From IMG/VR virus record IMGVR_UViG_3300005253_000125, positions 1-27,777 of that record: a stretch of 27,777 bases of DNA; one strand, 5' to 3'. Below the pieces are notes generated by a model. The model did not search any database, was not told the DNA's origin, and was given only the letters and a program-made list of their open reading frames with translations. The stretch is from a virus. The position numbers were made by a program, and so were the translations under genes. The first letter of the stretch is position 1, and every line of letters starts with the position of its first letter. Below are positions 3,462 through 17,326 of this stretch, piece after piece.

Positions 3462-4606
3462 TATCTCGTATCCAATATCCTTACTCTGTCATACAGTTCA
3501 ACCCGAGGGTCAAATGGTATAACTGTTCTGCCTGCAAAGGTCTCGGCTAAACTCTTGTTTAGTTTGAAGGTAGCCAGGGCATCGGCAGCAGCCTGACTAA
3601 TTCCTCTACCGAATCTATGAATCTCAAGGTTGTGCATATACTCCCCTGTGTAAACGGAGTCAGTCCAGTCATCACTAAATGCCTCACCCTCAACAAAGGA
3701 ACTCCAGTCTTGGTCTTCGCTGGTATCGCCGAATACCTTGACCCTATTAGGGATTTTGAGGAACTCCCTGTCGGTATTCTCATAGAATACATGGCCATCA
3801 CTCTGACTGGAGTAGTAGGTTTCATTCACCGAGTCTGTGGATTGCGGGTAGATTATCTTGAAGGACAAACCTGCATCTGCCCTCAGGTAAGAACCAGTGT
3901 ACCCTAGTAGCATTGCAATAACATCGACAAAGGTGTCATAGTTAGCAAGGCTGGTCTCATTACTATGACCTGGGGCATCCTGATTGATTAGGGGTCTCTC
4001 AGGGTCTTTGACTGGTTCTAAAACAAGACTATTGATTATACTATCATCCTGATCTCCGAGAGCATCAAGGGTGAAGTCGTATATCGAACCTGTCATATTA
4101 TAAAGAAACGTCTCAAGCAAGGCTTCTAATATCCCATAGATTGTCTTACCAGTAAAGTTGCCGAAGTTATCGTTATAGAAAGGAGCAGTCCCTATCAGGA
4201 CAAACAGTTCCCTGAGTACAGCCCACACCCCCTCAAGCTCCAAGAGAACTTTGAGGTCTTTCTTTCCATTCTTTGACCCACCAGAAAGGGTGTGTTGTTG
4301 TTTAACCCATAATCGAGGAAACTCCCCATACCTTAATCCTGAATCAGTGTTAGCTCCTAGTCCGAGGTCAATATAGTAGCCAACTAAGGAAGGTACAGCC
4401 AGGTCATCGTTACGAAGTTGAATCTGACAATACTCATCAAAAGGTTCCAGTCTCAATGTCAGGCTTTCAGAGCGGTTGGTGGTAACAGTTGGGTCAAAGG
4501 AATAATCGTAGGTCGTCCCCCCATCCTGAGATGTGAAGACTAACCTTATAGCGGGGTCAATATTTCCCCCAATTTTTGAAAGTAAATCAGCGTGTAAGCT
4601 TCTCAT
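3461..4606 (-). CDS. Tail hub or baseplate-like structural protein
   Basis: This is a 381-residue protein. Residues about 15-120 have a beta-rich layout with a passage on ordered strands (SESLTLRLEPFDEYCQIQLRNDD, then WVKQQHTLSG and LKVLLELEGVWAVLRELF). That resembles the N-terminal domains of phage hub or tail-tip proteins in environmental phages. The middle contains a FIDVIAMLLGY-like helix and a strand-rich region, and the end (VELYDRVRILDTR) looks like a hub beta-barrel strand. It overlaps the connector gene upstream by four bases and the propeller gene downstream by one. Assignment rests on general pattern and position, not a single diagnostic motif. Confidence 0.6.
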   Translation of the reverse strand: MRSLHADLLSKIGGNIDPAIRLVFTSQDGGTTYDYSFDPTVTTNRSESLTLRLEPFDEYCQIQLRNDDLAVPSLVGYYIDLGLGANTDSGLRYGEFPRLWVKQQHTLSGGSKNGKKDLKVLLELEGVWAVLRELFVLIGTAPFYNDNFGNFTGKTIYGILEALLETFLYNMTGSIYDFTLDALGDQDDSIINSLVLEPVKDPERPLINQDAPGHSNETSLANYDTFVDVIAMLLGYTGSYLRADAGLSFKIIYPQSTDSVNETYYSSQSDGHVFYENTDREFLKIPNRVKVFGDTSEDQDWSSFVEGEAFSDDWTDSVYTGEYMHNLEIHRFGRGISQAAADALATFKLNKSLAETFAGRTVIPFDPRVELYDRVRILDTR

Positions 4607-9940: not shown

Positions 9941-10177
9941 CTAGAAATAAACCCTCTTAGGGTCGTGTTCTAACTGTGGGTGATCTCTGAAAGTTGTGTT
10001 CCTTACCTGTTTTCTCCGTGAGGGGTAGCCCCCTTCCCCTGTGATTTTAATCATTGGGGGTGCGGAGAACCTGTGTTCCATCGAAGACCCGCATTCACAA
10101 CTCACCTCAGTCATCCTATTCAGTAAGACTTCAGTTTCGTTTCCACAATCTGAGCATCTAAAATCGTAGAGAGGCAT
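9941..10177 (-). CDS. FmdB-family zinc ribbon protein
   Basis: The 78-residue product opens with MPLYDFRCSDCGNETEVLL, the standard start of FmdB/CxxC-CxxC-SSSS zinc ribbons. C8 and C11 form the first pair and C27 with C29 the second, so the second pair is CxC and not the usual CxxC. A basic stretch (SRRKQVRN, residues 53-60) follows. FmdB proteins are thought to be regulators, but in phages next to the capsid their job is unknown. It starts four bases after the endonuclease stop, behind AAAGGA. Family call is firm, function is open. Confidence 0.8.
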   Translation of the reverse strand: MPLYDFRCSDCGNETEVLLNRMTEVSCECGSSMEHRFSAPPMIKITGEGGYPSRRKQVRNTTFRDHPQLEHDPKRVYF

Positions 10178-10180
10178 TAT

Positions 10181-10612
10181 TTATTTCCTTTGTTTTCTCC
10201 CGTGCAGACTAACAATCAACTTCCTTTGTTCTTCTTCAAACGCTATATCTTCTTCGGTTCTTTCTCCAAACTTGCGCTTGTCCTTTCTCTCTTGGAAACT
10301 AAAAGCTATATCTGCTTCTACCCTCTTAAGTTTGAGATACGGGTAGAGTGTTTTTAGAAACAGATAGGACTGCTTGGCTGCGAACTGTAACTGATAGCAG
10401 GGGCGATTTTGACGGAATACCCCCCTATTCATTGGGGAAATGTTACCTCCGAATGCAGTTTGGGTTTCTACTAGTATTTCTAGGTTAGTGTTCACTAAAC
10501 CACACTCCAACTTAATACCCTTTGGCATCCTCTTGCCAATATAGTACCGAAGGCAAATAAATCCCTCCCCATCAAAAAAACCTGCCAAGTAAGCCGCTTC
10601 TATTTCTTTCAT
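10181..10612 (-). CDS. Free-standing LAGLIDADG homing endonuclease
   Basis: Starting at ATG 10612, five bases before the capsid stop codon is complete on this strand, the product is 143 residues. It carries LAGFFDGEG at residues 9-17, the LAGLIDADG helix with its catalytic acid. The rest alternates strands and helices in the usual single-motif size, so it would act as a homodimer. A basic stretch (RKDKRKFGER) sits near the end. No SD site is evident before this ATG, so translation may depend on ribosomes ending at the capsid gene. A longer frame up to 10699 exists but lies wholly in the capsid gene. Such genes spread themselves by cutting the allele that lacks them; here the insertion is directly behind the capsid gene. 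Confidence 0.85.
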   Translation of the reverse strand: MKEIEAAYLAGFFDGEGFICLRYYIGKRMPKGIKLECGLVNTNLEILVETQTAFGGNISPMNRGVFRQNRPCYQLQFAAKQSYLFLKTLYPYLKLKRVEADIAFSFQERKDKRKFGERTEEDIAFEEEQRKLIVSLHGRKQRK

Positions 10613-10616
10613 TATG

Positions 10617-11477
10617 TTAAGCGAGGCGGGTGTAGATTGGTACGCCTGAAATATCACGGAGCTCGACCACACCCCACAGAGCCGTAGTATTGATAACAAT
10701 CTGATGCTTTAGGGGTTGTTCCACCCTATCAACATCCAGGTTTTGCTGGATAGCGATTGCCAGGGCATCTCGGTGCATATAGACACCATAGCTACCAGTT
10801 CCACTTGTAACGGCAGTCAGGTTATTAGTAACCAGGAGGGGAGCACCATAAATGTCCTTCCGGAACATACCCGTTACAACCGCATCGCTGGCAAAGTAGT
10901 CGTTCCTCGTGAACTTGTCTATCTTCAGTATGTCCGCCTTCACCGAGGGGTCACTTACCCAAACCCGATTCACCTCTGGGACATCCTCTTCATCTAGCTC
11001 TTCCACAGCAGCAATTAGTACATTGTCCGTCCATGCCGCCCCATCACCACCCCTGACTGTGCCTCCGTTGAGGGCAGAAAACAGGTCGCAGAGAGTGCTG
11101 TCTATTTTCTTGGATATTGCATAGGCCGATTCATCCTCTGACTTGCTGACTAGATTAACCTGAGACTGCCGTCTGGACATATAATCCACAGTTATAGGTG
11201 CCTCAAAGTATTTGTCTATGGTCAGCGTTACAGCTGAAGTATTAAACGGATTCTTCTGGGTCCCCTCAGTTCCTATCGTGACCTCTGTAGCAGCTACGGT
11301 GTTAGTTGCCGGGATATACAGGGTATCCCCCATTACCAACTCAGGTTCATAGGAATGGTTCACAACAGGTACAACAACCAACTTGTTTTTTAGTGCAATC
11401 AGCACATTTCTTGAATACAACTTTGGGATGAATTTCTTATCGTCCAACCCAGACGGTATTCTAGCGCTTATAGCCAT
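10617..11477 (-). CDS. Major capsid protein
   Basis: A 286-residue protein with the layout of an HK97-fold coat protein. The N-terminal passage FIPKLYSRNVLIALKNKLVVVPVVNH (about residues 16-41), then GDTLYIPAT (about 50-58), and YFEAPITVDYMSRRQSQ lie in the expected order. A later helical stretch (ESAYAISKKIDSTLCDLFSALN) and the C-terminal strand pattern (HQIVINTTALWGVVELRD) are also typical. It follows a scaffold-like gene with a clean AAGGAG site, the standard order in tailed phages. It has one Cys only. I do not see an N-terminal propeptide, so assembly probably uses the separate scaffold. Confidence 0.85.
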   Translation of the reverse strand: MAISARIPSGLDDKKFIPKLYSRNVLIALKNKLVVVPVVNHSYEPELVMGDTLYIPATNTVAATEVTIGTEGTQKNPFNTSAVTLTIDKYFEAPITVDYMSRRQSQVNLVSKSEDESAYAISKKIDSTLCDLFSALNGGTVRGGDGAAWTDNVLIAAVEELDEEDVPEVNRVWVSDPSVKADILKIDKFTRNDYFASDAVVTGMFRKDIYGAPLLVTNNLTAVTSGTGSYGVYMHRDALAIAIQQNLDVDRVEQPLKHQIVINTTALWGVVELRDISGVPIYTRLA

Positions 11478-11492: not shown

Positions 11493-12203
11493 TTACTTGA
11501 TTTTGCCCGCCAGCCGAGCTTTCTCGATTGCTCCTTGATTTTGCGTATACTCGGCATCGGACATATTGTCAATTTCGGCTAGAGTAAAGGACCCGGCACC
11601 CCCGCCACTATCCGCACCAGAGTCAGTTTTTGTCGGAGGCCTTACCTCCTGTTTCTTTGTTTGTAGATTAGCAAGTGCCTCTATCGCTTCCTTGGAACCG
11701 TCCGTGAACTTTGCAGCGTCAATGAGTTTGTCAGCATCTACATTAAGCCGAGTAGCGATTTCCCTGGCAGTTTGAGTTTTGGTTGTCTCTACACTGGCTG
11801 TTTTTATCTGGCTGAGTTCCTCATTGGCTGAGTCCCGTTCCAGTTTCGTGTCATCGAGTTCAGCTTCAGCTTGCCTGCGCCTTATTCTTTCCTTGACCTC
11901 TTGTTCAGAACGCATTTCTGAGCTCCCTTTAGCAGCTTCAAGGTCAGCGTCATCCTGTTCTTGCCTCATTTTCTTTGTCCGCTCTAATGCTGCTGTGCTT
12001 GCATTCAAAGACCTCTGAGCATCTCTAGAGGCTTTTTCAGCTTCTGCTTGGAACCGCCCGACATCTGCTAATGCTGTATTTTTGCCTTTGCGTTCCGCTT
12101 CATCTAACTGAGTCTGGGTGTACTGGGGTTCCTCTTTTGGAGTTTCCGTCTCCCCCTCCGTGAGTTCTACGTCACTAGGAGCATCTAGTCTGTCCGTGGT
12201 CAT
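11493..12203 (-). CDS. Capsid scaffold protein
   Basis: The 236-residue product is very rich in Glu, Lys, Ala, Gln and Ser. An acidic N-terminus (residues 1-30) leads to a long coiled-coil region at about 30-150 (QLDEAERKGKN..., SRDAQRSLNASTAALERTKKM). A helix and Gly/Ser-rich linker come next, and a basic C-terminal end (IEKARLAGKIK) that could bind the capsid. Size, composition and its place directly before the capsid gene define a scaffold. The start follows AGGAGG. A terminator-like hairpin with U run lies immediately upstream. Confidence 0.8.
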   Translation of the reverse strand: MTTDRLDAPSDVELTEGETETPKEEPQYTQTQLDEAERKGKNTALADVGRFQAEAEKASRDAQRSLNASTAALERTKKMRQEQDDADLEAAKGSSEMRSEQEVKERIRRRQAEAELDDTKLERDSANEELSQIKTASVETTKTQTAREIATRLNVDADKLIDAAKFTDGSKEAIEALANLQTKKQEVRPPTKTDSGADSGGGAGSFTLAEIDNMSDAEYTQNQGAIEKARLAGKIK

Positions 12204-12220
12204 AGTAACCTCCTAATCTT

Positions 12221-12252
12221 AATAACAAAAAAGCCGCCACTTTCGGCGACTT
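12221..12252 (-). terminator. Rho-independent terminator or attenuator before the scaffold gene
   Basis: On the minus strand AAGTCGCC pairs with GGCGGCTT around a six-base loop (one mismatch), followed directly by TTTTGTTATT. This is a standard intrinsic terminator form. It lies after the Com-like gene and 18 bases ahead of the scaffold start. Because it stands between an upstream promoter candidate and the gene, it may work as an attenuator. Confidence 0.75.
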
Positions 12253-12296
12253 GCGCACGTAAAATGACGGCTACATCGAGCACTTTTTATTCTTTT

Positions 12297-12325
12297 ATTA
12301 AATTACCAGACGGGTAGCCTACCAA
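12297..12325 (-). promoter_or_regulatory. Sigma70-type promoter candidate for capsid genes
   Basis: TTGGTA (12325-12320) and TTTAAT (12302-12297) are separated by 17 bases on the minus strand. The -10 matches five of six consensus positions, the -35 four of six. A transcript starting near 12290 would pass through the terminator-like hairpin at 12252-12231 before reaching the scaffold gene. Confidence 0.45.
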
Positions 12326-12344
12326 GCTATTACACACTACAACA

Positions 12345-12518
12345 TTATAGAGTGCTTGTCAAGCTTACCAGTTTATGAGACTGATAAGGGAGTTTCCCAC
12401 TATCGAATATATTATGCCTTTTACACCTCGGACAGGGTATCTCTACTCTACCCGCTAAGTTATAGGCAAGTTTCTTTCTGCACTGATCACATCTCAAGAA
12501 CCCATCCCGGTCTATCAT
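12345..12518 (-). CDS. Com-family zinc finger translational regulator
   Basis: A 57-residue frame begins at ATG 12518, overlapping the giant gene's TGA (ATGA), and ends at TAA 12345-12347. It reads FLRCDQCRKKL, then VEIPCPRCKRHNIF. The Cys pairs at 10/13 and 29/32 and the EI.CPRCKRH.I block match the Com protein of phage Mu, which binds RNA at the start of the mom gene and turns on its translation. No mom-like modification gene is visible here. The coding region lies directly before a promoter and hairpin leader, so a regulatory role in the capsid transcript is possible. The family is well supported; the target is inferred. Confidence 0.75.
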   Translation of the reverse strand: MIDRDGFLRCDQCRKKLAYNLAGRVEIPCPRCKRHNIFDSGKLPYQSHKLVSLTSTL

Positions 12519-15500
12519 CTCAGCAACCCCTCAAGGCCTCGGATATTAGGTGCAGTGGTTTCTGGGGTAGTTGGAGCAGAGGGTGTTATCGTCTCTGTCT
12601 TCTCAACAGCAGGTTTATAGCCATACCACCTAACCAGAATAGCATCAATCTCTGGATTATCTATACGGAATTGTCGTCTTGTCGAACTTGGCGTGGCAGG
12701 CAATTCCCAATAGGGATTTAGTTCCTTCTTTGCCCTTAGATATTCTTGAATCAAAGGAGGATGTGTAGTTAAACCAGTATTTCTTTCCACAAAATTCTTT
12801 TGCTCTGCACTCCAGAAGTTCTCATATCGCTCCATTATTTCGTCAAGTCTATCCCAATCCACTCTGCCGGAAGCAGTTGTCGCCTGGTCAAAAGCCAGAT
12901 AATACTCAGCTAATGCTCTGTCGTTAGGATCATCCGGCATATCACGCTCATCCTGGAAGATATTTAACGCCCTATTGATACCTGATTTCTCATCATGCCT
13001 CGCTTGCTGTATCTCATTATATCTATCCCTGAATTGTTGCGGAGTGATTGTCTTATTCACAAACTCTATAGTTAAAGCATCCTCTTGTGAAAAATACTTC
13101 TCATCAACCTCAGCCCACATCTGGCTGGCATCTGCCCAAACTCCCTGCCCACTGCCCACCATCAATCCGGCTATATCAGGGTGCCGTTTCTCCATTTCTG
13201 CTTCCTGCCAGTTCTCGGCATACCTATAGCTCTTGCCTTCAGGGTTGATGTCAGCATTCTCAGAAGACTGGAATAGTATATCCATTTGGTTATACGGACT
13301 ACCCCTGCCTACAATTCCAAAGACTTCAGCAATAACTGATTCTGGCCTCCCCTCTGGAATAGCCTCCAACGCTTCCTGTATAGATATAGGTACTGCCATT
13401 TCTCCGAGTATTGCCTGAGTTATACCAAGGGGCGTTCTCTCTAGGACATCCCCTTCCCAGGTTCTATATTCTCCTTTAACTAAATAACTAGCTATAATAT
13501 CAGCAGCTCGAATGGGGAGACCCGCCTTAGAGACAAAGAAATTCCTTATCTCCCTCACTGCCTTATCAAAATCACCTTGCGAAGCATAGACACTACTCCT
13601 CGCCATTGCTCTAAAGTACGGATAGAAAGGCCCAAAGGGGTTAAAATACGTCCTACCAATTGGTACTTGCATCCAATCAGGAGCAAATGGATCATCCATA
13701 TTGGGCAACTCTTTCTTTGTAGCCCAAGATACCCCTATCAGGATGGCTAACCCTCCGGCAATTAAGGAACCCATCGCCCTACGTGCTTCCCTTCCTCCCT
13801 GTCCTGCATTTACTGACTGCATTATTATACCAATATTGGCCCTGAAAAATCTTGCAGCGAAGAAGGTTAACTGTTCTATGGTGTGTTGGGTCGGTCTCAC
13901 CCCCAGAATGGCCATTGACTCAGTGCCTAGCTCTTTTCTGATAGCGGAGCCTAATTCAACTAAAGCATCCATGGCCTCTTTTTCCAACTCCACACCAGCA
14001 GGTGTAATCTGGCCTTTTGCCCTGCGTATGGCACCAGTTCTTGTTGATTTGTATAATTCGGTCTGCCCTACTACGATAAACCACTCAAACGCTCGGTTAA
14101 AAGACTTCATAAGCCCACCAATTACGGGGATCCTGGTTGGGAGACTGGCTAACCCCCCCCTAGTAAACATAAACTCTGTTGGGATAGAGATTGCCCCTGT
14201 CCTCATACCTTCATCCATTACCGGGAAATTCTTGGAGACAAAGGCAGTGGGTTCGTGTATCAGGGCTACGACTGCATTAGCCTGCGCCCTCCACCACGCC
14301 AGATTATTCCGATAAAATAAGCTCTGCCCTTGTATAAACCCAGCAGCAAGGTCTACGTTAGTCAGGGTAGTTCTTAAAAGTTGCGATACGGCTAAGACAT
14401 TGCTGGTAACAACACCTCTACCTGTTTTAATTTCAGGTAAATCTATCCACTTTTGGACTTCGTTTACCAATTCTTGAGGAGCAATCCTGCTGTTAGGTAA
14501 CTTCAGTTCGCCAATATTGGGCTGAGATGCTTGAATCTTCTTGTTAAATAACTCTCTCTGTGCATCAATGAAATCAGCCTCTGCTTCCCTGAGAGTCGTT
14601 AGGTTCTCCACCGTCTTATCTTTAATGTATACTGCCTTAGCTTCATCCCTAGCCTGTCTCGCAGCCCTAGCCCCCTCCACGGTTTGCGGGTAGCGGCTCT
14701 CCAATCTCTCTAAAGGCTTCTCTACCCCAGGTAGAGCACTAATAGCTTTTCTGGCTCCTTGGTCAGCGATAGTCCTAATGCCTGCTTCCATGCGACCTTG
14801 AAGAGTCTCAAGGGGATGAGTGTAATACTCAAAGCCCATTGCTGCGCCTTCATCCACAAAATCAAAGGCTCTTTGCCGAGTATACCCCTTCTTAGAGGTG
14901 ATTTGGCTCTGAATCTTCCCTCCCAATAATTTGTCTGCTGGGGCTTTAGCAACTATTCTTCGCCAGTAATCGCCAGTGAGTTCGACAGCATCAACCCCCG
15001 CTCTCTGCGCATCACGAAGTATTTGATTCTGCATATCCTGAGCCAATTTAAGCAACGCCTCTTGCTCGGTAGTAAGAATGTAATTCTCAGGATGTTCTAC
15101 TAAGTCATGTATGGTAGCGTGGTAAGGTTTAGACGGATCAGCCTTATCGGATATTTGAACTTTAGTGGCTCGCCACTTCTGGGTCACTCGCTTGAACTTG
15201 AATGCTTTTTCAGCATCATGCCACCAGCGTAGAGTAGCCAATCTAGCCCTACCTGTTTCTATTTCGATGTATATATTCTTATTAACTCCTATCATAGCTA
15301 CTTTGTTATCTCTGTTCATTTGTGCAGGATTCCAAATAGCTACTGCCTGTGACACACCGGGAGTGTTACGGAGGAACCGCTTAATAGGGGTATCATTCTG
15401 TAGGAGATTTTCACCATGCTCATTGAAGGGCTTAACCTTAAAGAGTAAATCATCTTCACTGATAGGCTTATTAACATCCATTGATGCTGCTCTTTGCTCT

Positions 15501-17326
15501 GGGGTTAAAGCTCTCATGCCCTTAGCTTCTCTACTTAAATCTGCCAATGTTCTCGGCCTACCTGAGACTGGTTCGGGTGATGGGGGCATATCATTTGGTG
15601 GAGGTAAGCCTTTCTTGGGAGGCTGTGTCGGTGGAACCTCAGTAGGTTGCGGTGGAATAGGCTCTACTTCTCCGGTAGGGGCTATCCCTGTAACCTCAGC
15701 AGGCACTTCTGCAACCGCCTCGGTGGGTGGGGGGGTGACTTCAGGAACCAAGCGCCTATCAATAACTACTTGGGCAGGAAACGATTTGGCACCAAGAGAG
15801 ACAAGAGCATCAAACCGATTAGCCCCCTCTAATATATATGCGCCCTTATCATCAATCACTACGATGAGCGGTGTTATTTCACCAGAGGTTTCGATTTCAT
15901 TCGCAAGTTCGGTACGTGCCTTACCCTCAGCAGCCTCTGGGAAAGCCGACATAGGAACTTCACGAATATCTGCCAAGACTTCAAACTCTTCCAATGATGC
16001 TTCTATAGATTCTTGATTAGGAATTGGCATCCTTGTTCTTCTACCATCAACAATTTCTCCCGCAACAGGATAATCGCGAGCAACCATCTCAACTTCAGGC
16101 ACCGCTTCAGGGACAGGTGCAGCAAAACCCTCTTTCACCAATTCTGTCTGAAGCCTAGCCTCTAATGCAGTAGGAGGAACAACATCTGGAGCTGTTTCAG
16201 GGATAACCTTAGCCATAGCCGATTTCTCTGATTCGGTTAAGTTCTCGAAAGCCCTCTCACCTATGGCCGCCTCAAGTCCCGCCCTTTCTGCACTAGCTAC
16301 CCGTTGGGCTGCTGTCATAGTATTCCAGATAGCCACTGTTAAAGCCCCAGGCTGAGCAGGTAGGCCACCAAAGGCCAGCGCCCCTGTCTGCGTGCCCCTT
16401 GGAATGATACTCGATACCTGAGTACGTATTAGGGCTGCTACCTCCTCCTCCATTCGACTCACGGCCTCTGGAGATGCCTGGAATCCCTTTGGAGTTCTCC
16501 TAAAGATAGAATCTACAAACTGCCTCCCCATCATTCTGCGTACCGTTTTGTCCTTCATTATAGTATCAACAAAACTATTCAGAGTATCTTTGGGAATACG
16601 TCCTCCGGCTAACTGTTGCGCCTGACGCATTGTATAAGTTCTGACAAGGAACTGCCAGCCAACCCTAGTTGCCTGTAAGCCACTGTAAGTCAGTAGAGCA
16701 AGGCCAGCAATATCGGTAGCAGATAAACCTCCGCGCCATAAAGGGCTATTAACCAAGCCAATAATCCCTTCAGTATTGGCCAGTGATTCCCTTCGTATCG
16801 CGGCTGCCTTCTGCTCTGATGGTACATTCTCGATATATTCCTGATGTCTTCGCTCCCACCATCCAGCAGGGTCAGTCAGAAATGAAATCCTCCCTACTAT
16901 CGCTTCAGGAACAGCAGTTCGCCTCTCAAGGATAAGACGGTTAATCTCTTCATCAGAGACATCTCCCACCCGTAGAATCTCGGCTACATCTTCATCGGAC
17001 AATTCTGGAGGAAACAACTCATCTATCTCCTCACCCTTAAACCCAAAGCCCTGAAGCATTATCTCAGTGTCTCTAGTCCTGCCTTGTGTCTTTAAATCAG
17101 CCAGAAAAGCGTCAGGGTCCGCATTAGCAAACTCATCGACTTTAACAACCACATCTTCAGGGCTCTTAGCTTCTAGTGCTATCTCAGGGAACCGTCTTTC
17201 AGTAGCCTCAAGGAACGTATCCTCATCAATGGCAGGTAGTTCAGATTGAGGTAATACGCCCTCCCCTATCTTAATGGGCTTGGGCTTTCTAAATAACACA
17301 TCTCTGGATAGTGGCCTTAAGGTCAT
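12515..17326 (-). CDS. Giant polyvalent internal virion protein with ParB-like domain
   Basis: This 1603-residue protein starts with ATG at 17326 (AGGAGA upstream) and overlaps the gene before it. Residues about 1-370 are helical. Residues about 452-530 form a ParB/Srx-like domain (ITPLIVVIDD..., then the ILEGANRFDALVSLG motif at 499-513). A Pro-rich linker lies at about 531-600. The rest is large helical, with a hydrophobic stretch at 1187-1201 (SLIAGGLAILIGVSW) and amphipathic regions near 985-1090. A ParB-like domain inside a giant phage protein is known from the 'polyvalent' proteins delivered into the host. Its place between portal and scaffold is common for ejected proteins such as T7 gp16. 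Enzymatic activity is not shown. Confidence 0.7.
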   Translation of the reverse strand: MTLRPLSRDVLFRKPKPIKIGEGVLPQSELPAIDEDTFLEATERRFPEIALEAKSPEDVVVKVDEFANADPDAFLADLKTQGRTRDTEIMLQGFGFKGEEIDELFPPELSDEDVAEILRVGDVSDEEINRLILERRTAVPEAIVGRISFLTDPAGWWERRHQEYIENVPSEQKAAAIRRESLANTEGIIGLVNSPLWRGGLSATDIAGLALLTYSGLQATRVGWQFLVRTYTMRQAQQLAGGRIPKDTLNSFVDTIMKDKTVRRMMGRQFVDSIFRRTPKGFQASPEAVSRMEEEVAALIRTQVSSIIPRGTQTGALAFGGLPAQPGALTVAIWNTMTAAQRVASAERAGLEAAIGERAFENLTESEKSAMAKVIPETAPDVVPPTALEARLQTELVKEGFAAPVPEAVPEVEMVARDYPVAGEIVDGRRTRMPIPNQESIEASLEEFEVLADIREVPMSAFPEAAEGKARTELANEIETSGEITPLIVVIDDKGAYILEGANRFDALVSLGAKSFPAQVVIDRRLVPEVTPPPTEAVAEVPAEVTGIAPTGEVEPIPPQPTEVPPTQPPKKGLPPPNDMPPSPEPVSGRPRTLADLSREAKGMRALTPEQRAASMDVNKPISEDDLLFKVKPFNEHGENLLQNDTPIKRFLRNTPGVSQAVAIWNPAQMNRDNKVAMIGVNKNIYIEIETGRARLATLRWWHDAEKAFKFKRVTQKWRATKVQISDKADPSKPYHATIHDLVEHPENYILTTEQEALLKLAQDMQNQILRDAQRAGVDAVELTGDYWRRIVAKAPADKLLGGKIQSQITSKKGYTRQRAFDFVDEGAAMGFEYYTHPLETLQGRMEAGIRTIADQGARKAISALPGVEKPLERLESRYPQTVEGARAARQARDEAKAVYIKDKTVENLTTLREAEADFIDAQRELFNKKIQASQPNIGELKLPNSRIAPQELVNEVQKWIDLPEIKTGRGVVTSNVLAVSQLLRTTLTNVDLAAGFIQGQSLFYRNNLAWWRAQANAVVALIHEPTAFVSKNFPVMDEGMRTGAISIPTEFMFTRGGLASLPTRIPVIGGLMKSFNRAFEWFIVVGQTELYKSTRTGAIRRAKGQITPAGVELEKEAMDALVELGSAIRKELGTESMAILGVRPTQHTIEQLTFFAARFFRANIGIIMQSVNAGQGGREARRAMGSLIAGGLAILIGVSWATKKELPNMDDPFAPDWMQVPIGRTYFNPFGPFYPYFRAMARSSVYASQGDFDKAVREIRNFFVSKAGLPIRAADIIASYLVKGEYRTWEGDVLERTPLGITQAILGEMAVPISIQEALEAIPEGRPESVIAEVFGIVGRGSPYNQMDILFQSSENADINPEGKSYRYAENWQEAEMEKRHPDIAGLMVGSGQGVWADASQMWAEVDEKYFSQEDALTIEFVNKTITPQQFRDRYNEIQQARHDEKSGINRALNIFQDERDMPDDPNDRALAEYYLAFDQATTASGRVDWDRLDEIMERYENFWSAEQKNFVERNTGLTTHPPLIQEYLRAKKELNPYWELPATPSSTRRQFRIDNPEIDAILVRWYGYKPAVEKTETITPSAPTTPETTAPNIRGLEGLLR

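Follow-up and report, generated by a model that had tools for sequence, protein, structure and literature searches.

Com is known chiefly for activating the translation of a single gene, mom, and in phage Mu it binds a hairpin loop with the consensus CC(N)2-3GAG (PMC6483171). In annotated phages (Mu, KS5, AP3, phiARM81ld, Chuche, TJ1, and Bise), a com-like gene is followed directly, and usually with an overlap, by mom or by the gene for an N4/N6 or a Dam-type methylase. In phage Bise (L015), the com-like gene directly before the DNA adenine methylase gene is itself unannotated (about 3487-3690, plus strand). The ribonucleic antiterminators BglG, SacY, and LicT are RNA-binding proteins that stabilize a hairpin overlapping the 5' arm of a terminator.

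The DNA that we analyzed (the window; 27.8 kb, 27,777 nt) comprises an entire IMG/VR record, IMGVR_UViG_3300005253_000125, and this record probably covers only part of the viral genome. A sequence-only reading had related a 57-residue frame to Com on the basis of two sequence blocks, and this relationship was upheld: the frame (12345..12518), its strand (minus), and the blocks RC..C.K and VEI.CPRCKRHN were all confirmed in the 57-aa product, MIDRDGFLRCDQCRKKLAYNLAGRVEIPCPRCKRHNIFDSGKLPYQSHKLVSLTSTL, which matches phrog_6417 ("translational regulator," 7.4e-8) and phrog_13819 ("gpCom," 1.7e-5). Com-family HMM searches agreed in part, in that the PHROG gpCom family was matched and the Pfam model Zn_ribbon_Com (PF10122) scored 15.8 bits, below its cut-off of 22.9. 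The Cys4 signature of the family (RC..C.K ... EI.CPRC) is present with its conserved spacing, and C10, C13, C29, and C32 are invariant in an alignment across 20 relatives. The AlphaFold2 prediction is a zinc ribbon of four strands, with a mean pLDDT of 76 that rises to 83-88 in the confidently modeled core. A Foldseek search with this model gave no significant match, comparison with solved structures gave only weak zinc-ribbon matches (AccD, eS27), and a Pfam scan found zinc-binding domains only, the CAT and PRD domains of the BglG/LicT type being absent. Judged by its sequence, the gene product is a Com-type zinc ribbon, a kind of protein already known, and we propose that it acts as an RNA-binding antiterminator.

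The minus strand carries, in order, terS, terL, a portal-type gene, a giant gene, com, a 141-nt leader, a scaffold-type gene, and the major capsid gene. The giant gene (12515..17326; 1603 aa) has a distant homologue that precedes com in the related record L042, and its stop codon overlaps the com start codon within an ATGA (12515..12518), an arrangement by which the two genes are likely to be translationally coupled. ParB-like domains are matched weakly by the giant gene of the window (0.057) and better by that of L042 (1e-5; L042:6253-10425). The first gene past the leader (11493..12203, minus strand) gave no match in Pfam and PHROG family searches and is called scaffold-type from its position and from a homologue (41% identical) that precedes the major capsid gene of the related record L225. 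The major capsid gene (10617..11477, minus strand) was identified through phrog_267 (1.5e-33). An HNH-type endonuclease frame (10181-10699, minus strand; phrog_5046, 3e-17) extends into the 3' end of the capsid frame, and an FmdB-type zinc ribbon directly 3' of the capsid gene (9941-10177, minus strand) is kept in com-less and com-bearing relatives (L008, L009, L225, and L235). As previously read from the sequence, no mom-like gene is visible: models of N6/N4 and D12 methylases (PF01555, PF02086) found no match in the 27.8-kb fragment, whose ORFs were partly covered, no modification domain was found in a subset of ten further ORFs, and no defence-gene model was matched.

Within the leader, two small hairpins, both proposed Com sites on the minus strand, are interwoven with an intrinsic terminator (12232..12272, minus strand; about -21.7 kcal/mol), which consists of a 12-bp outer stem, AGCCGUCAUUUU/AAAGUGGCGGCU, and a U-tract after it. 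Hairpin H1 (12270..12281) is GCU[CGAUGU]AGC, and its 3' arm, AGC, is also the foot of the terminator, so that the layout makes the two structures mutually exclusive; hairpin H2 (12246..12256), GCG[CAAGU]CGC, lies 25 nt after H1, is nested in the terminator, and is compatible with it. The ribosome-binding site of the scaffold-type gene falls outside the terminator stem. The hairpin leader reported earlier is real, and a leader scan also yielded an alternative, shorter terminator-like stem (12252-12231, minus strand). The promoter that had been placed in this leader was not borne out, since no sigma-70-like site occurs in 12204-12344 on the minus strand and the TTGACA and TATAAT found there are merely 7 nt apart. 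A search of 12100-12600 against Rfam gave nothing near threshold. The strict Mu consensus taken alone, which has one stemless match just upstream of the com start, was set aside as too short to inform.

A single-protein search of IMG/VR, which responds to near-exact peptide stretches, returned no match for window Com. Relatives were recovered instead with degenerate DNA patterns and with a two-sequence profile built from window Com and its L042 relative (63% identical over 38 aa), the latter recovering L225, L226, and L227. Several of these relatives, which also include L235 and L238, share the same synteny, and L225 is identical to the window at 70% of capsid, 41% of scaffold, and 35% of portal positions. 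The leaders of the window, L042, L225, L226, and L227 follow one plan: H1, terminator 5' arm, H2, terminator 3' arm, U-tract, and scaffold gene. H1 and H2 read GCUA[CACGA]UAGC and GUUC[CAAGA]GAAC in L225, GCUA[CAUUGA]UAGC and GAAC[CUAGA]GUUC in L227, GCUA[CACAGA]UAGC and GACU[CUUGA]AGUC in L042, and GCU[CGGAGU]AGC and GAC[CCAGU]GUC in L226. Accordingly, a C-N2-3-G-A loop is present in L042, L225, and L227, as it is in L235 and L238. The window hairpins fall below this family norm, with 3-bp stems and loops of the form C-N2-3-G-U that end in GU rather than GA; this variant recurs in one independent relative, L226, and since L226 was found through its protein and not through its RNA, the GU variant is replicated.

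In addition, the terminator and H2 stems covary. MAFFT misplaced the stems when given the five whole leaders, and the alignment was therefore trimmed by hand to fit the structure, a procedure biased in favour of covariation. In it, both sides had changed in 8 of 14 base pairs of the terminator and H2, 97% of cells were paired, and none of 500 shuffles reached the covariation score. A descriptor of tandem hairpins plus terminator, composed after the window had been seen, was matched in 4.1 Mb of strand-sequence only by the window, L042, L225, L226, L227, and L200, each time just after com. The leaders are intact even where a homing-endonuclease gene (L042) or a tRNA-like insertion (L227) separates them from com. 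Paired hairpins are absent from the com-less relatives L008 (major capsid protein 84% identical), L009 (major capsid protein 40%), and L002 (giant gene 56%), and both com and paired hairpins are absent from L005, which has a capsid or giant gene in common with the window.

To place this locus among others, we searched IMG/VR with a degenerate DNA pattern for EI.CPRCK..N, and nearly all of the 119 stretches obtained were true Com-like zinc ribbons. Collectively, some 80 distinct Com-like genes can be divided into two kinds, one followed by a DNA-modification gene and the other inside structural operons. The next genes of the first kind cluster as D12, N6/N4, and C5 methylases and Mom. The second kind stands between portal and scaffold or major capsid genes (L022, L035, L040, and L102) or before a head protease (L045), portal (L114), tape measure (L116 group), or tail tube (L053) gene, and spans several unrelated major capsid families (phrog_1357, 212, 544, 267, 29, and 1328). 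Relatives are therefore not always found beside mom: many adjoin scaffold/capsid, protease, portal, terminase, or tape-measure genes. In the records of the structural set, neither an N6/N4 nor a D12 methylase was found, except in that of L042, where one lies far from com. A gene near the structural-type com of L030 (also L036, L115, and L128) encodes a head-morphogenesis protein with an additional match to a family that takes its name from an ADP-ribosyltransferase. Five Saganbacteria/WOR-1 contigs (L143, L179, L203, L209, and L212) have a Com-like zinc ribbon beside genes of ~415 and ~598 aa, with no hairpin, and these Com-like genes perhaps serve a host function.

We scanned the end of each com, together with the leader that follows, for hairpins of a 4-bp stem and a C-N2-3-G-A loop. 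Among 24 distinct modification-type loci, in a few of which the next gene is unannotated, 21 had such hairpins, 34 in all (dinucleotide-shuffle mean, 0.63; maximum, 4); among 18 structural loci, 10 had them, 12 in all (mean, 0.58; maximum, 4), about half of the structural loci being without a strict hairpin. The same scan found none on the reverse strand and 0-3 with other loop sequences, and the background in the same contigs was 0.23 per kb. In 28 new distinct Com loci of bacterial genomes, the motif, fixed beforehand, occurred as 19 hairpins spread over 15 loci, as against a shuffle mean of 0.67 loci (maximum, 4) and none on the reverse strand.

The hairpins of modification-type loci are often paired, 22-23 nt apart. 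Such tandem hairpins lie upstream of phage methylase genes in L025, L047, L059, L089, L095, L204, and others, and probably form a general operator through which Com controls DNA-modification genes other than mom. The gene that follows com and tandem hairpins in L037 (8310-9404) has weak matches to ABC transporters and GNAT acetyltransferases and possibly encodes a DNA-modification enzyme of a new type.

In ten loci, hairpin and terminator overlap. The whole 4-nt 3' arm of the hairpin lies inside the terminator 5' arm in L022, L045, L106, L108, L114, and L120 and, in the replication set, in L171, L185, and L187, and three of its four nucleotides do so in L042; none of the modification-type loci shows such an overlap. 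Because the 3' arm of the hairpin is the 5' foot of the terminator, binding to the hairpin and formation of the terminator exclude each other. The gene after the L185 element encodes a tape measure, and those after the L171 and L187 elements are not clearly structural.

A search that started from the RNA alone led back to the protein. The pattern GAGCTAC N2-3 GATAGCC ... GGCTTTTT retrieved 13 stretches from IMG/VR, among them 9 distinct new loci; since the pattern itself partly specifies a terminator, the terminators of these 13 do not count as separate evidence. A Com-like zinc ribbon is encoded upstream on the same strand in all 9, although L237 (degenerate zinc ribbon) and L228 and L234 (divergent ones) are weaker cases for that reason. 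In 7 of the 9, com lies within about 540 nt of the element; the distance is 1.6 kb in the record of L230 and 7 kb in that of L232, where a second element directly follows com. The genes past these elements are scaffold and major capsid, protease and major capsid, protease, or terminase genes and, once, a ParB-like gene. In genome G027, a second copy of the element lies 7 kb away, before the head protease gene, and the presence of two elements in a single genome implies that Com acts in trans.

The reading that we favour, and hold to be reasonably probable on these comparative grounds, is that a Com-like RNA-binding antiterminator gates scaffold and capsid transcription in the window. Upstream transcription would yield the giant protein and Com and then halt at the terminator (12272-12227). 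Once Com had accumulated, it would bind H1 and H2 in the nascent RNA, and the hairpins held in this way would block folding of the terminator, because the 3' arm of H1 is the terminator foot and both hairpins flank the 5' arm. Polymerase would then proceed into the scaffold and capsid genes, and the circuit would serve as a feed-forward timer that delays capsid synthesis until Com builds up. The earlier suggestion that the RNA target is the capsid transcript thus gains support from the comparative RNA evidence; as for the mode of action, antitermination is favoured over translational activation of the Mu type because the target hairpins are part of an intrinsic terminator.

Activation of the Mu type is nonetheless a real rival, in which Com would refold the leader so that the scaffold gene, and hence capsid, is translated, the stem serving only to inhibit translation or to add stability. 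This is the established mechanism of Com (PMC6483171), modification-type com genes overlap their target gene, and in the tape-measure-linked loci L021, L043, and L107 a hairpin covers the Shine-Dalgarno sequence of the tape-measure gene; that hairpin resembles the translation-inhibiting structure of mom, and translational control looks likelier there. We consider it rather unlikely for the window, where, as in ten other loci, a hairpin lies within a stem directly preceding a U-tract and the ribosome-binding site lies beyond that stem. Com could also work in the opposite direction, as a feedback repressor or attenuator that strengthens the stop and limits capsid, for example by clamping H2 at the terminator apex. 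The nesting of H2 in all five leaders would suit such a role, which is improbable given that H1 represents the type of site found in every terminator-type locus and that H1 and the terminator exclude each other.

The degenerate hairpins of the window and the loss of com from L002, L008, and L009 might instead mark a leftover gene, an ordinary small zinc ribbon without a role in the leader, next to a plain terminator. The tandem variant replicated in L226, the covariation, the reciprocal co-occurrence in 9 of 9 loci, and the confinement of descriptor matches to sites after com genes make this quite improbable. Finally, the target of window Com might, as in Mu, be a DNA-modification gene, located beyond the ends of the fragment, given that the record is probably incomplete and that the L042 record holds a distant N6/N4 methylase. 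We regard this as extremely improbable, for a modification-type com directly precedes its target, whereas scaffold and capsid genes come next here, and neither of the two methylase models tried has a match in the window.

More broadly, Com-type zinc ribbons could make up a common class of phage antiterminators that has so far escaped notice, a generalization to which we give about even credence. Hairpins of the C-N2-3-G-A/GU type woven into terminators before capsid, protease, terminase, and tape-measure genes would let Com act in trans on several transcripts and set late structural timing, and Mu Com/mom would be a special, translational case of the same RNA recognition. If true, one zinc ribbon and a 13-nt hairpin would form a compact RNA switch that explains delayed synthesis of capsid, protease, and tape measure in many unrelated phages, and the RNA motif would be a search tool for com-dependent regulons. 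Our searches of open-access papers turned up no description of Com acting as an antiterminator or belonging to a capsid operon; by that measure, what is new is the structural-operon setting with target hairpins embedded in terminators.

Like Mu Com (PF10122; phrog_13819), window Com is a Cys4 zinc ribbon of ~60 aa encoded by a small gene that lies immediately before the presumed target, and its predicted binding site is likewise a small hairpin, with a loop resembling the C-N2-3-G-A type. It differs in that its gene precedes scaffold and capsid genes instead of a DNA-modification gene, its hairpins are embedded in a terminator and have loops ending in GU, and its Pfam score is under the cut-off. 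The com-methylase pairs of KS5, AP3, phiARM81ld, Chuche, TJ1, and Bise share the zinc ribbon, and the IMG/VR loci related to them share the hairpin type, often as tandem copies spaced 22-23 nt apart; in these pairs, however, com lies before or overlaps a methylase gene, and there is no terminator overlap. BglG, SacY, and LicT follow the same logic as that proposed for window Com but belong to an unrelated protein family, whereas window Com lacks sugar sensing, would use a smaller hairpin, and is encoded in a phage structural operon. The phage antiterminators N, Q, and P7 and put RNA (see PMC6624301 and PMC9378689) likewise control genes by letting polymerase pass terminators; they modify polymerase processively, whereas window Com would act locally, through RNA folding.
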